From Methanofollis sp. W23 (GTDB taxonomy: Archaea > Halobacteriota > Methanomicrobia > Methanomicrobiales > Methanofollaceae): a stretch of 64,000 nt of DNA. Under the pieces are notes generated by a model, which searched no databases, was not told the DNA's origin, and saw only the letters and a program-made list of their open reading frames with translations. Of this stretch, positions 28,270 to 33,083 are shown piece by piece. A program made the translations under genes and the position numbers. Where the stretch lies: assembly GCF_017875325.1 (NCBI RefSeq), contig NZ_JAGGMN010000001.1:1756140-1820139 (forward strand). Direction: 5' to 3'. Numbering within the stretch: the stretch's first letter is position 1; every line of letters starts with the position of its first letter.

Positions 28270-29301
28270 TCAGAGCCCGCCCCGGCGCCGCCGCCAGACC
28301 TCGAGCAGCCCAAAGCACCCGGTGAGCATCATGTCCCCATAGGGCGCCGCCTGGTAGGCGTCAGGGAGAAGACGGGCGCGGTTCGGGCCGGTGACCGCGA
28401 CCGGGGTCTCGCCGATCGCTTCCCGCACCGCCGCCCCATGCCCGCCGTCCTCGAAGACCTCCTCGTTGGTGAGGGTGCCGTCCTGCAGTTTCCCGAGGAA
28501 ATGGGTGAGCCGTGCAGGATCGAGCGAGGAGGTGTGGTGCTCGAAGAGCCCCTGCACCTCGGTGCCCCGCAGGGTGAAGGCCAGGGTGTGGCCATTGCCG
28601 ACATTGACCAGGGTCACGCCGTCGGCGTTCGCCTGCGCCGCGACCCAGGGGTCGAGGAGGGCGCCGATCGCCGCCACTGCCCCGGTGTCGGTGACCAGTG
28701 CCTCAGGCGCCGCCGAGAGCACGGCCTGCATCCTGCTCATCGCCGGGTGCGGGGGATCGGGGACAAGGGAGAAGAGGTCCCAGTCTCCTTCTTCCAGGAG
28801 TTTCCGGAAGACCGAGAACCTGAAGACCCGGTTCGAGACCTCAGGCGAGAACCCGTGGTCCTGGACGGCGATCGCCACCCGCTCAGGGTATGAGACGCCG
28901 AAGAGCGCGAGGGCGGTCTGCAACTCGCGGGCCATATAGTCCCCGGTCCGCACCGTGACCGCACCCTCAGGCGCCTCGTCGGCGACCTCGACCCCGAGGG
29001 CCGCCACCCGTGCCGGGTTGTCATGGACCGTCAGGGCCGCCTCAGGCGTGGCCGTCACCTTCACACCGGCGGCCAGGGCCTCCTTCACCGCGAGCACGCT
29101 TCCGCCCCCGCCCATGCACGCCCCTTCCAGGTGGACCGAGCGGCCTGACCGGGCGGCCTCGCGCACGGCATTGCCGACGACGACCGTCGGGGACGGGAGG
29201 ACGAGTTTCACCGAGTTCTCGACTGGCGCCTCGGGGTCGTACAGGAGGACGTCCTGCGTCCCCCGCCCGACATCGATGGCAAGCACCCTCCTATCAACCA
29301 T
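28270..29301 (-). CDS. DUF1786 family protein, third gene of the nrd operon
   Basis: This encodes 343 residues. The start MVDRRVLAIDVGRGTQDVLL with a DxGxGTQD phosphate-loop pattern, followed by ENSVKLVLPSPTVVVGNAVR, marks the DUF1786 family, whose fold resembles the sugar-kinase/actin ATPase group; some databases label it as a putative pyruvate formate-lyase activating enzyme, without experimental proof known to me. VTLVNVGNGHTLAF is a second nucleotide-site-like segment. The ATG lies 3 bp after the nrdD stop codon. Since this NrdD shows no glycyl-radical motif, a link of this protein to reductase activation is a tempting but untested idea. Confidence 0.8.
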   Translation of the reverse strand: MVDRRVLAIDVGRGTQDVLLYDPEAPVENSVKLVLPSPTVVVGNAVREAARSGRSVHLEGACMGGGGSVLAVKEALAAGVKVTATPEAALTVHDNPARVAALGVEVADEAPEGAVTVRTGDYMARELQTALALFGVSYPERVAIAVQDHGFSPEVSNRVFRFSVFRKLLEEGDWDLFSLVPDPPHPAMSRMQAVLSAAPEALVTDTGAVAAIGALLDPWVAAQANADGVTLVNVGNGHTLAFTLRGTEVQGLFEHHTSSLDPARLTHFLGKLQDGTLTNEEVFEDGGHGAAVREAIGETPVAVTGPNRARLLPDAYQAAPYGDMMLTGCFGLLEVWRRRRGGL

Positions 29302-29304
29302 GGT

Positions 29305-32300
29305 TCACGCCTCCAGCTTTCCCCTGACCTTCGGGTCACCGCGGTATTCCTTGAACCGTTTCAGGGAAACCGTCAGGTCGCGAGTGAAGGCGAAATAACC
29401 GATCTGCGTCTTCTTGCAGAGGTTCATCGCCATATCGTACAGCCCTCTCGGGTCTGGCCGCGCCTCGCCGAGCCAGATATGGAAGATGTTGCCGCCGTCG
29501 ACGATCGGGAAGAAGACATGCTCCACCTCCATCCGCTTGGTGAGCGGGACATCGGCCCCTGGCGAGACATGGGTGCCGTTGGTGTAATAGACCGGAAGGT
29601 CCCGCGTCGTCCCGCAGTCCGCGACCGCCGCCTCGGGGTCGCCCTGCATCACGCCGAGCGCCGCCTCCCTGAACTCGTCGTCGAGCATATCCGCGACCGC
29701 AAACCGCTGGCCGGTCGTCTCGGCCGGCGTCCGCGCCAGGGCGATGGTCATGCCGTTCTTCTCAGAGAGCGTCTTTGCATAGAGTTCCATCTCGGTCATC
29801 GCCCGCACCGCCATCTTGAAGGCGTCCTTCGACTCGTGGAGCTGGTGGCCGGTATGGTACTGGACCATCTCGTTCACCCCCACGACCCCGATGGTGTAGA
29901 CCAGGCTCTCGAGGTCGACGGCCACCGCACCCCGCTCGCCGGTCTGCGGATCTTTCGGCCGCTGCATCGCAAACGGCATCCGGCCGTTCGTGCGGATCGT
30001 CTCCATCCACCGACGCTTCACCTTGAAGACCTCGACGGCCACGTCCATCAGGGCGCGGAGTTCGGCGAAGAGCCGTTCGTCGTCGCCCTCCGCCTTGTAG
30101 GCGGCCCGCGGGCAGTTGACCGAGACGACCTCCCATGAACCCATCGAGAAGTGCGACCCGTCCTTGAAGTAGAGTTTCTCCTCAAAGTGGTCGTCCTTCT
30201 CGAAGGTGGAGGAGAATTGATAGGCGCAACACTGGTAGCACGAGATCCCCTTCCCTGCGCCGCGGTACGGCGGGAGCTGGTTGTCGTAATAGGGCGTCCC
30301 GAACTTGGAGGCCAGTTCAAAGGTGAGGAGATAGAGGTCCTGGTAGGACGGGAGGTCGGGGTGGGTGCGGTTGAACTCCTCGTCCTCTTCCATGAAGTCG
30401 GGCTCGATGGAGATCTCGGGCTTGGGGAAGGAGAAGGGTTTGCCCCAGTAGTCGCCCTCGAGCATCACCTCCATCATCGCCTTGAAGAGGAGACGGACCT
30501 CGCGCTCGAACTCGCCGTAGGTCCGGAGCGGCGCCTGCCGCCCGTCCCAGACCTTGCCCTTGTAGACGCAGGGCTTGTCCCGCCAGAGGGTCGGGACGCC
30601 AGGCGAGAGCTGGACCGAGGAGAAGACGAGCTGTCCGCCGCGGGCGACCATCATCTGGGTCATCTCGTAGACGAACATCTGCATCAACTGCTTCATCTCG
30701 CCATAGTCCATCCCCTCGAAGTACGGGGAGAGGAAGGTGAGGAAGTTGTAGTAGCCCTGCCCGCCTGCGAAGTTGGTCTGGGCGCTCCCGAGGGCCTTGA
30801 CCGCATGGAGGACCGCGACTTCGGCGCGTCTGGCCGGGCCGGCGACCGAGGCCTTCGTGCCGTTGCCGTCAGGCATCAGCCCGTAGTAGAAGAAATAGCG
30901 GAGGTCCCAGTCCTGGCAGTTGTGAATGAGCAGACCATCTGAGGCATAGAAGGTGTGGCTCTCCTCTGAGCCGTCGCCCTCCAGGAAGAGGTCATAGACA
31001 TACTCCCCCGAGGGGACGGCCGCAGTCGAGGAGACGACTTCCTCGCGAGAGAAAGCCCCGGCCTCGTGCACCGCCGCACCGCCGGCCTCGAACTGCTCCT
31101 GCTTCTCGTCGAGGAACCTGACCCACGTCGCAAAGGTCCTGAGATCCCCGGCCCTGTCAAGCCTGAGACTGAAGGGCGAGGAGGTCCCGACGACCTGCGG
31201 GTGCATGCCAAGTGCCGAGAGGAGGAGGGAGAGGTCCTGCCTGGTGGTGGCCGAGGGGGTGGTGTAGGTGACGGCGCCGCCAGAGACGGTGCCGCCGGCG
31301 GTGAAGAGGGCCGAGAGGAACTCCCTGAGGTGGGCGTCGTCGAGGTGCCAGACAAGCCAGGGGAGATGCTTCTTCTCTGCTTCCTCAGGGACGGCAAAGA
31401 CGTACCTGAAGAGGAGCCACTCCAGTTTCCCACCGAAACGGACCCGCATCGCCTCGGTCTGCCTTGCGAGGGCGGCCCTCTCGTCAGAGAGAGCGCCCCT
31501 GACATCGGCAAGGACCGCATCAGACCGACCGGTTTCCGTGACGACCAGGCCGTACGAACTTCCTGGGACGACCTCGTAGCCCCCGCCCGCGACAAAGCCA
31601 CCGAGAAGACGGCAGAGGGCCGGAGTGACCGGCAGGACCGCCGGGAGGTCGCGCTCGCTGCCCGCGACCCCGATCCTGAGGTCGCCGTAGTCGGTGATCT
31701 CGTAATACTCGCAGAGGGCGCTGAAGACCACGAGCGGCATGGTCCCGCGGGTGAACCATTCCTTGTGGTGCTCGATGCCGAGGGCCCGCGAGACGGCGGT
31801 GAAACTCCCCTCGATCGCGGAGAGCCGCTCGAAGATCGGGCGAGCCCCCCGCACCACCACATTCTCCAGGTACGCAAGCGGGACCGAGAGAAAGAGTTCT
31901 TTGACCAGGTCGATCGTGTCCACCGGCGTGCCGCGGAGTGCAGGGGTTGTGCTGAGCCCGTAGAGGAGGGCGCCCTCCCTGACCTCACCGGCCTTCGTGA
32001 TCTGCATGCCTCCCTCGGCCTGGACAGGGACCCGGTGTTCACGGGTGGCAAGGAGACTCTTCCCGGTCGCCGTGGAGATCTGGAGCAACTCGCCCTCTTC
32101 GACCTGGCGCCTGGTGACCTTCTGCACCGTCCGGTAGCCCTGCGGGGTGAGGACGGCCAGGTCGTCAGGGAGATATTCGTCGCCGTCGAAGGGCACCTCG
32201 TCGAGTCGCATCGTCTGGTGCCGTCCGGCCGCGCGGAACGGCACGACCGTGCTCCCGTCAAGACAGAACGGACGCGTCCCGAAATATTCCAGGTCATGGA

Positions 32301-32817
32301 CATGGAGGTCGCCGGCCAGGTGGCGGTCGGCGAGTTCAGGCGGGAGCTGGAGGAGGTACTGCTCCTTGGAGATCTTGTCGGCCTTCTTCTTGTGCGAAGT
32401 CTCGGCGTTCTCCTGGAGGTTGGCGTTGTCATGGGCCTCGAACCCCCGGCCGACGTCGATGAGATGGGCGTCGTAGACCGGGGTGCCGACCCTGGTGCAG
32501 ACGTTCCTGTACTCGACCATCCCCTTCTCCAGGAAGACCATGTTGACGATCTCGCGGATCAGCGCCCCGGAGAGGAAGTGCAGACCAAGGTTCCTGATCC
32601 GCTCCTCGACGACCCGTGCGATCTCCTCGGCCTGCTCCTTCGTCGCCGGCGCATACCCGTAGAAGTGCTCGACAAGTCTGGTCTCGTTCTCGATCTGGGC
32701 GACGATCTTGGCGCGGTCCCATTCGAAGATGTGCCCCTCGGTGGAGCGGACCTTGGGCAGGGGCGGGACGAAGACACCGTCAAGCGTCGCCTGTTTGCTC
32801 TGCCGGTCCACCGTCAC
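29305..32817 (-). CDS. nrdD: anaerobic (class III-like) ribonucleoside-triphosphate reductase with intein; no visible glycyl-radical domain
   Basis: The 1170-residue precursor comprises a 721-residue reductase and a 449-residue intein (residues 185-633). An N-terminal ATP cone (KVRSTEGHIFEWDRAKIVAQ) controls activity. The reductase core shows CQDWDLRYFFYYGL just after the intein, GISCYQCCAYQFSSTFEKDD, and near the end DGGNIFHIWLGE and KKTQIGYFAFTRDLTV. In usual NrdD proteins that last motif is followed by a four-cysteine zinc site and the RVxGY-type glycyl-radical motif; here only SLKRFKEYRGDPKVRGKLEA follows before the stop. The gene overlaps the upstream nrdH-like gene by 4 bp and is followed by a DUF1786 gene after 3 bp. 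No nrdG activase gene is in the window. Confidence 0.9.
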   Translation of the reverse strand: MTVDRQSKQATLDGVFVPPLPKVRSTEGHIFEWDRAKIVAQIENETRLVEHFYGYAPATKEQAEEIARVVEERIRNLGLHFLSGALIREIVNMVFLEKGMVEYRNVCTRVGTPVYDAHLIDVGRGFEAHDNANLQENAETSHKKKADKISKEQYLLQLPPELADRHLAGDLHVHDLEYFGTRPFCLDGSTVVPFRAAGRHQTMRLDEVPFDGDEYLPDDLAVLTPQGYRTVQKVTRRQVEEGELLQISTATGKSLLATREHRVPVQAEGGMQITKAGEVREGALLYGLSTTPALRGTPVDTIDLVKELFLSVPLAYLENVVVRGARPIFERLSAIEGSFTAVSRALGIEHHKEWFTRGTMPLVVFSALCEYYEITDYGDLRIGVAGSERDLPAVLPVTPALCRLLGGFVAGGGYEVVPGSSYGLVVTETGRSDAVLADVRGALSDERAALARQTEAMRVRFGGKLEWLLFRYVFAVPEEAEKKHLPWLVWHLDDAHLREFLSALFTAGGTVSGGAVTYTTPSATTRQDLSLLLSALGMHPQVVGTSSPFSLRLDRAGDLRTFATWVRFLDEKQEQFEAGGAAVHEAGAFSREEVVSSTAAVPSGEYVYDLFLEGDGSEESHTFYASDGLLIHNCQDWDLRYFFYYGLMPDGNGTKASVAGPARRAEVAVLHAVKALGSAQTNFAGGQGYYNFLTFLSPYFEGMDYGEMKQLMQMFVYEMTQMMVARGGQLVFSSVQLSPGVPTLWRDKPCVYKGKVWDGRQAPLRTYGEFEREVRLLFKAMMEVMLEGDYWGKPFSFPKPEISIEPDFMEEDEEFNRTHPDLPSYQDLYLLTFELASKFGTPYYDNQLPPYRGAGKGISCYQCCAYQFSSTFEKDDHFEEKLYFKDGSHFSMGSWEVVSVNCPRAAYKAEGDDERLFAELRALMDVAVEVFKVKRRWMETIRTNGRMPFAMQRPKDPQTGERGAVAVDLESLVYTIGVVGVNEMVQYHTGHQLHESKDAFKMAVRAMTEMELYAKTLSEKNGMTIALARTPAETTGQRFAVADMLDDEFREAALGVMQGDPEAAVADCGTTRDLPVYYTNGTHVSPGADVPLTKRMEVEHVFFPIVDGGNIFHIWLGEARPDPRGLYDMAMNLCKKTQIGYFAFTRDLTVSLKRFKEYRGDPKVRGKLEA
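30919..32265 (-). other. intein in NrdD (449 residues), homing endonuclease motifs degenerate
   Basis: The intein begins at Cys (codon 32263-32265) after GTRPF and ends LLIHN (codon 30919-30921) before Cys+1 of CQDWDLR. N-terminal splicing block: CLDGSTVVPF; block B: LLATREHRVPV with TxxH-like residues; C-terminal blocks: SGEYVYDLFLEG and SHTFYASDGLLIHN. All residues needed for standard splicing are present. The middle part has two LAGLIDADG-like helices, LGGFVAGGG and LSALFTAGG, but in both the catalytic Asp (eighth position) is Gly. It therefore looks able to splice but not to cut DNA. Base composition matches the host gene, suggesting long residence. Confidence 0.9.
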
Positions 32818-33083
32818 TCACCCGAGGCAAGACCGTCGACGAGCTCGCCGCGTACATGTCCGTCCTCGAAGAGGTCTGAGGAGGTGTAAAAGTCGTCCCC
32901 GAGTCTGAGCACCGGGGCTTCGTTGACAAAGACGCCGTTCACCCGCATCTCGGTGAGGGCTTCGGCAGATGACATGTCCTCTTCCTCATAGGGATACCCT
33001 TTCTCGGTCAGGTATGCCTTGAGGAGGTCGCAGTTCGGACAGAATTCAAGGGTATAAACAGTAAATTGTGGACGTTCAGCCAT
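32814..33083 (-). CDS. glutaredoxin/NrdH-like redox protein
   Basis: This encodes 89 residues with a thioredoxin fold: TVYTLEFCPNCDLLKAYLTE holds the CPNC redox pair (residues 15-18), and VNEAPVLRL and YTSSDLF supply the cis-Pro loop region and C-terminal helix. Its stop overlaps the nrdD start (ATGA). Methanogen class III reductases of the type that do not use formate are known to draw electrons from NrdH-like proteins, so it is the likely reductant of the neighbouring NrdD. GGGAGAG lies a few bases before the ATG. Confidence 0.88.
   Translation of the reverse strand: MAERPQFTVYTLEFCPNCDLLKAYLTEKGYPYEEEDMSSAEALTEMRVNGVFVNEAPVLRLGDDFYTSSDLFEDGHVRGELVDGLASGE

Follow-up and report, generated by a model that had tools for sequence, protein, structure and literature searches.

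We analyzed a 64,000-nucleotide stretch of Methanofollis sp. W23 DNA (contig NZ_JAGGMN010000001.1, positions 1,756,140 to 1,820,139; hereafter the window) that encodes NrdD, the catalytic chain of an anaerobic, class III ribonucleotide reductase. Sequence comparison makes it very probable that this NrdD belongs to a working class III reductase of the NrdD3 type made of two polypeptides, the NrdD body in the window and a 120-amino acid (aa) radical-bearing subunit encoded far away in the genome, together with the activase NrdG2. The genes themselves, their co-occurrence and joint loss across the order Methanomicrobiales, their linkage in viruses and the conservation of their motifs point to this arrangement. 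Class III reductases are described as carrying the radical in their own C-terminal domain (available excerpts of PMC9531940 and PMC9669993).

The nrdD body lies at positions 29305..32817 on the minus strand. It is an open frame for a 1170-aa precursor that includes an intein. Its match to PF13597 (429 bits) covers profile positions 1-510 of 562 with none past 510, and its match to TIGR02487 (454.7 bits, cut-off 326) extends up to 529 of 581 with none beyond. Thus the chain has the barrel and the curated family score of a class III reductase, and the zinc/glycyl-radical domain is not on this chain but on a separate protein. Without the intein, it aligns unbroken with the fused NrdD of relatives up to YFAFTRDLTV, the point at which the fused enzymes run on into the zinc/glycyl-radical domain. 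Here the chain ends instead as YFAFTRDLTV-SLKRFKEYRGDPKVRGKLEA-stop, the motif being followed by a 20-residue variable tail (29305..29397, minus strand; assigned from this alignment and the C-termini of relatives), 3 bases before the next gene (28270-29301). The initial annotation, made from the letters of the window, had described just such a NrdD-like chain lacking a zinc and radical domain, and both the profile matches, which stop there, and the alignment of the extein bear it out. The body retains NAETSHKKKAD, CQDWDLRY and the finger loop GISCYQCCAYQF. The finger loop contains the double-cysteine motif QCCAYQ (30217..30234, minus strand), and QCCR/A is the finger-loop motif of subtype NrdD3 (PMC9669993, section 9), to which the window NrdD would belong by its sequence. 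A regular-expression search of all six frames of the entire 64-kb window found no glycyl-radical-like motif, and a genome-wide PF13597 search for a hidden NrdD C-terminus matched only the window gene and one distant small open reading frame (ORF). Therefore, neither a motif in another frame after 29305 nor a sequencing error, both of which the initial annotation had considered, accounts for the missing domain.

The PF13597 search gave three matches in the genome: the two parts of nrdD on either side of the intein, and C1:2637175-2637330, which covers only the last 57 profile positions (506-562). This third match lies 848 kb from nrdD in a gene with its own start methionine (C1:2637166-2637525, minus strand; loci L002/L044), whose 120-aa product is a stand-alone glycyl-radical domain. 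The protein has a complete four-cysteine site (a C..C/C..C pair) and a CPLDHTHC segment, followed by CPLCGAPVCPECG and ISRVTGYLQDVSGWNAGKQQELKDRVRY, with the glycyl-radical loop RVTGY. In Pfam it matched NRDD (60 bits) and, weakly, the double zinc ribbon (DZR), with no other match. The glycyl-radical domain of the pyruvate formate-lyase type, PF01228, had no match in this protein or in the genome, so that the 120-aa protein is the sole glycyl-radical protein found in the genome by the PF13597 and PF01228 searches. A structural model of the protein (predicted local distance difference test score, pLDDT, 84.5) places the radical loop between two strands, followed by a helix. The genome also encodes a single dedicated radical-SAM (S-adenosylmethionine) activase, NrdG2, above the curated cut-off (C1:1210300-1210860; 155 bits versus 131), and a class II reductase, NrdJ_Z; the PF13597 search revealed no second full-length NrdD. 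These genome searches bear out one of the options raised in the initial annotation, in which the radical domain sits on a small protein of its own.

We searched 150 genomes of the order with PF13597, with the small protein and with NrdG2 (E 1e-25). PF13597 matched in 125, five of which had only a domain-sized match, leaving 120 genomes with the body. The small-protein search matched 132 genomes, or 122 with the domain once ten genomes of genus g16 that had only weak hits were dropped. Both parts were found in 117 genomes, the body only in three (G038, G085 and G138; 71, 93 and 84% complete), the domain only in five (G056, G098, G130, G144 and G147; 62 to 85% complete) and neither in 25, all from genus g16 (e.g., G024, G030 and G042; two listings combined). 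NrdG2 was present in 122 genomes. The 28 without it were G061, G089 and G109 plus 25 of g16, this last number coming from a listing and arithmetic, with 8 of the 28 not individually named there. All 25 genomes sampled from g16 thus lack the body, the radical subunit and NrdG2 alike. With the exception of the three draft genomes, every genome without NrdG2 has neither body nor domain. A different mode of radical generation, another proposal of the initial annotation, is not needed given this pattern. The weak hits in the ten g16 genomes (E 4e-6 to 1e-3) were not counted; they fell mostly in ORFs of 1142-1177 aa, where they likely reflect weak similarity of the profile to zinc regions of DNA polymerase D. 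One g16 genome had a further weak hit in a 259-aa ORF.

The truncation is widespread. All 30 relatives whose C-terminus we read have it, with a stop ~25 to 31 residues past YFAFTRD(L/I)TV, and among the matches listed the PF13597 matches of the NrdD bodies in the order end at profile positions 510-516. The exceptions were one match extending to 524, some fragments with earlier ends and, in G001, an additional full-length NrdD accompanied by its own NrdG (L074 4228-6386). The G001 genome has the split enzyme as well, and this NrdD is the only extra fused one seen in the order. By eye, this stretch of G001 is flanked by transposase-like genes. In a collection of named genomes, from which we kept 80 of 271 confirmed stretches, the small subunit occurs in Methanofollis, Methanoculleus, Methanoregula, Methanolinea, Methanospirillum, Methanogenium and Methanomicrobium, the closest among those kept (99% identical) being from a Methanofollis genome. 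The split of NrdD into a body and a separate domain is therefore order-wide.

The neighbors of the small gene recur on its own strand across the 80 loci. Upstream, 77 loci have a pyrF-type gene, no more than 300 bases away in 59 of them. Downstream, 78 have cbiZ, at most 300 bases away in 66, and a gene for an oligonucleotide-binding (OB)-fold, RPA-like protein follows further along in 70. The median pairwise ratio of nonsynonymous to synonymous substitutions (dN/dS) was 0.13 (209 pairs with usable dS from 30 sequences), and the gene is under purifying selection.

Viral genomes provide the strongest evidence that the body and the small protein are partners. Scanning viral contigs with the small-subunit alignment yielded 23 loci, 20 of them stand-alone in frames of 109-157 aa; the others were fused NrdD genes (L224 and L225) or a broken fused NrdD (L226). 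At four loci (L206, L208, L209 and L216), three genes stand in a row, separated by short gaps or slightly overlapping: the small gene, then one for an NrdH-like glutaredoxin, then a truncated nrdD. In two of these clusters a B-family DNA polymerase lies downstream, as does an NrdG2 above the cut-off (151.7 and 137.3 bits), and a third adjoins baseplate and tail-fibre genes. A second scan, with NrdD bodies, found 22 loci: the same four truncated ones, 17 fused and one cut by the contig end. The small gene was in the cluster for all four truncated bodies, whereas a separate domain was found in the flanks of none of the 17 fused ones. Many viral contigs, most of them fragments, had the domain and no detected body; viral contigs carry either most of the split set or only the small subunit. 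The modelled truncated NrdD of a virus (pLDDT 87.5, with the last 13 residues below 50) matched solved class III structures with E-values down to 5e-27. NrdD is reported as an auxiliary gene of viruses of the ANME-1 anaerobic methanotrophic archaea (PMC9894754). The small subunit matched 36 records of annotated phages and 25 of plasmids, none of them covering 80% of its length, and the annotated features beneath the listed matches were mostly NrdD genes. Two short phage families in PHROGs, phrog_29160 and phrog_4218 (158 and 333 positions), are named as the large subunit of the anaerobic reductase and may represent parts of an NrdD divided at different positions. Separately, in two fused viral NrdD frames (L227 and L228, in G479 and G480) TAG occurs once or twice in frame, perhaps as a reassigned stop.

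Beyond the order, we surveyed 392 genomes of the phylum, in which counts of matches are lower bounds. Stand-alone domains in frames of 88-194 aa were found in at least 11 genomes of other families (G393, G431, G323, G198, G186, G178, G235, G315, G249, G272 and G421), and a degenerate-looking one in G203. All 12 also have a whole-profile NrdD, in two pieces in G431, and to judge from the sequences the stand-alone domain of genomes with a fused NrdD has the look of a spare part. We dropped G313 (L123) from this set, because its frame of 85 aa, at the start of a contig, has the sequence of a cut fused NrdD. By eye, the stand-alone domain of G421 (L114 5709-5975) is next to an ORF of 939 aa, perhaps a primase-like or mobile-element gene, and at L116 (4834-5163) a degenerate stand-alone domain with an altered end lies upstream of a 799-aa ORF that resembles a class II reductase.

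We examined the origin of the split in a tree of 64 NrdD bodies, in which L103, a fused gene in two pieces from assembly G431, was carried in the host-split group of 32. The 31 true host split bodies form one set (Shimodaira-Hasegawa-like approximate likelihood ratio test, SH-aLRT, 95), which groups with the four viral split bodies in one clade (SH-aLRT 93). This suggests a single origin of the split, with the long viral branches leaving the exact place unsure. In a tree of the domain only (42 columns), a free search did not unite the stand-alone forms in one clade, and a single clade was not rejected (approximately unbiased test, p-AU 0.36). Stand-alone and fused forms differ in their cysteines. 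A compact site, C-x2-C-x(3-5)-C-x(0-2)-C and nearly always C-x2-C-x4-C-x2-C, was present in 142 of 142 recognised stand-alone rows (30 + 80 + 12 + 20 from the different sets, with species overlap) and in 0 of 41 recognised fused ends, seven NrdD and three viral loci being unrecognised and left uncounted. In the fused relatives, the first cysteine comes directly after the split point (...DMTVC...), followed by CxxC and SRVTGY. Their zinc site draws on a cysteine at the position where the split body stops, whereas the site of the small subunit is self-contained (CxxC-x4-CxxC), as would be required of a domain separated from its barrel.

How the two proteins would work together can be outlined from what is known of the family, the presence, linkage and conservation of the parts being observed. 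The window NrdD would be the catalytic body and the 120-aa protein the radical-bearing subunit that binds it. NrdG2, with S-adenosylmethionine, would generate the radical on Gly95 of the RVTGY loop, on a small subunit that is either free or already docked. The small subunit would insert this loop into the mouth of the NrdD barrel, where the radical would pass to a finger-loop cysteine of QCCA. The resulting thiyl radical would allow reduction of the substrate, after which the NrdH-like redoxin would re-reduce the active-site cysteines and so supply the electrons.

Several observations weigh against such a two-part enzyme. It is proposed from genes and sequence comparison, and a fold search with the model of the small subunit gave no significant match. 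Body and domain genes are far apart where they are on one host contig, the closest noticed being ~17 kb from each other (G068). Three drafts have the body and not the domain, one of them 93% complete, and three have the domain and no NrdG2 match at 1e-25; we read these as probable assembly gaps. In addition, a class II reductase is encoded in the genome, which means that the class III system may be dispensable.

Among other explanations, the one that fares best, and which we still regard as very unlikely, is that the small protein serves only as a repair part similar to YfiD, with the truncated NrdD using another radical source or the two not being partners. Stand-alone domains do coexist with fused NrdD in some genomes of other families, and many viral contigs, mostly fragments, have the domain with no body detected. 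However, no other glycyl-radical domain accompanies the truncated body in the Methanofollis genome, and an extra fused enzyme was seen in the order only in G001. Furthermore, body, domain and NrdG2 are lost together, and the viral clusters hold both body and domain.

Less probable still is that this NrdD is a decaying pseudogene, with the class II NrdJ supplying all deoxynucleotides, or the truncated, non-functional copy that the initial annotation had allowed for. A class II NrdJ gene is indeed present and one genus of the order lives without NrdD. Yet the frame is open, its active-site motifs are intact, it is 89% identical to its nearest relative and it overlaps nrdH, and both genes are kept throughout the order, with purifying selection on the small one. 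These findings contradict decay.

The NrdD of Methanofollis sp. W23 does carry an intein, which might suggest that a split intein joins body and small protein into a single-chain enzyme after translation. The intein occupies precursor residues 185-633 (30919..32265, minus strand; Pfam and curated-family matches), directly before the cysteine of CQDWDLRY. It matches LAGLIDADG_3 above the cut-off (23.8 bits) and Intein_splicing below it (20.3 bits), and resembles an intein found in a different archaeal protein (NF045703, E 4e-22). It thus sits inside the body rather than at its end, while the small protein has its own methionine, ~60 extra residues and no intein match in the Pfam scan, and in relatives whose body has no intein the chain stops at the same point; we therefore give joining by a split intein hardly any credence. 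The class II NrdJ of this genome (L077 3626-6904) also contains an intein, so both reductases are intein-invaded. NrdD frames of 1670-2008 aa in G004, G010, G040, G067, G087 and others have profile matches broken at ~53 and ~263, which suggests two inteins in one gene.

The genes next to nrdD are also on the minus strand. Upstream, an nrdH-like gene encodes a glutaredoxin with CPNC (32814..33083; ORF list, Pfam and curated-family matches), whose stop overlaps the start of nrdD by 4 bases. It is the presumed electron donor of NrdD; of 30 loci with a split nrdD, 29 have such a gene within 1.5 kb, as do 21 of 30 with a fused nrdD. The gene downstream (28270..29301) encodes a DUF1786 protein (PF08735, 262.9 bits). 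A DUF1786 gene occurs within 1.5 kb of nrdD at 10 of 30 split loci and at none of 30 fused ones, and its Pfam name, ‘putative pyruvate formate-lyase activating enzyme’, hints at an activase by name alone.

The fused NrdD3-type reductase of related archaea, presumably of the Methanosarcina barkeri type, has the same barrel, the QCCA finger loop and nrdH next door, and aligns unbroken to YFAFT(R/K)D(L/M)TV. It differs in having the zinc site and glycyl loop as its own C-terminus, with the first zinc-site cysteine right at the split point. The split class II reductase of Pseudomonas aeruginosa is reportedly also encoded in two pieces, although it is of a different class and uses a different cofactor. 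Small stand-alone proteins with a glycyl-radical loop are likewise found in a cell and a virus, YfiD (GrcA) of E. coli and Y06I of phage T4. These are spare parts for pyruvate formate-lyase, the only two such proteins that had been validated, and for YfiD robust activation was reported only with a damaged partner present (excerpts of PMC8683613). The Methanofollis protein would instead serve a reductase. It has no PF01228 match, unlike a domain of the pyruvate formate-lyase type, and on this count falls outside the GrcA/YfiD family. In the Methanomicrobiales it is also the only copy rather than a replacement for a damaged one. Gene anatomy nonetheless leads us to infer that it works as a dissociable radical-bearing protein in the manner of GrcA/YfiD. 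In the open-licence literature, we found no report of a class III reductase whose radical subunit is a protein apart, nor a mention of one in the available portions of PMC9531940, PMC9669993, PMC8683613, PMC3019208, PMC11528403, PMC4493059 and PMC9894754; an earlier mention elsewhere is possible.

It is conceivable, and in our estimate slightly less probable than not, that the glycyl-radical domain acts as an exchangeable cartridge: a renewable small subunit, usable by viruses and derived from a spare part. Radical loss or cleavage by oxygen would then hit only the 120-aa subunit, so the radical could be renewed without remaking the large chain. If so, viruses with the small subunit alone would use it to reactivate or take over the host reductase. 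The route would have begun with a spare part, as beside the fused NrdD in other families of the phylum, the built-in domain then being lost in the ancestor of the Methanomicrobiales and the viral split enzymes.

The database name ‘anaerobic ribonucleoside-triphosphate reductase’ hides the missing subunit, the body passing the curated score and the small protein not. With a few genes, the two-part enzyme would open three questions to experiment: radical transfer across a protein interface, how an activase recognizes a substrate that is small and free, and how the enzyme is repaired once exposed to oxygen. The authors of PMC8683613 speculate, in the excerpts available, that spare parts exist for other glycyl radical enzymes, and the family of stand-alone domains is a direct candidate for a spare-part-type protein of ribonucleotide reductase. 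Most of one order of methanogens separates the radical domain from the body of its class III reductase.

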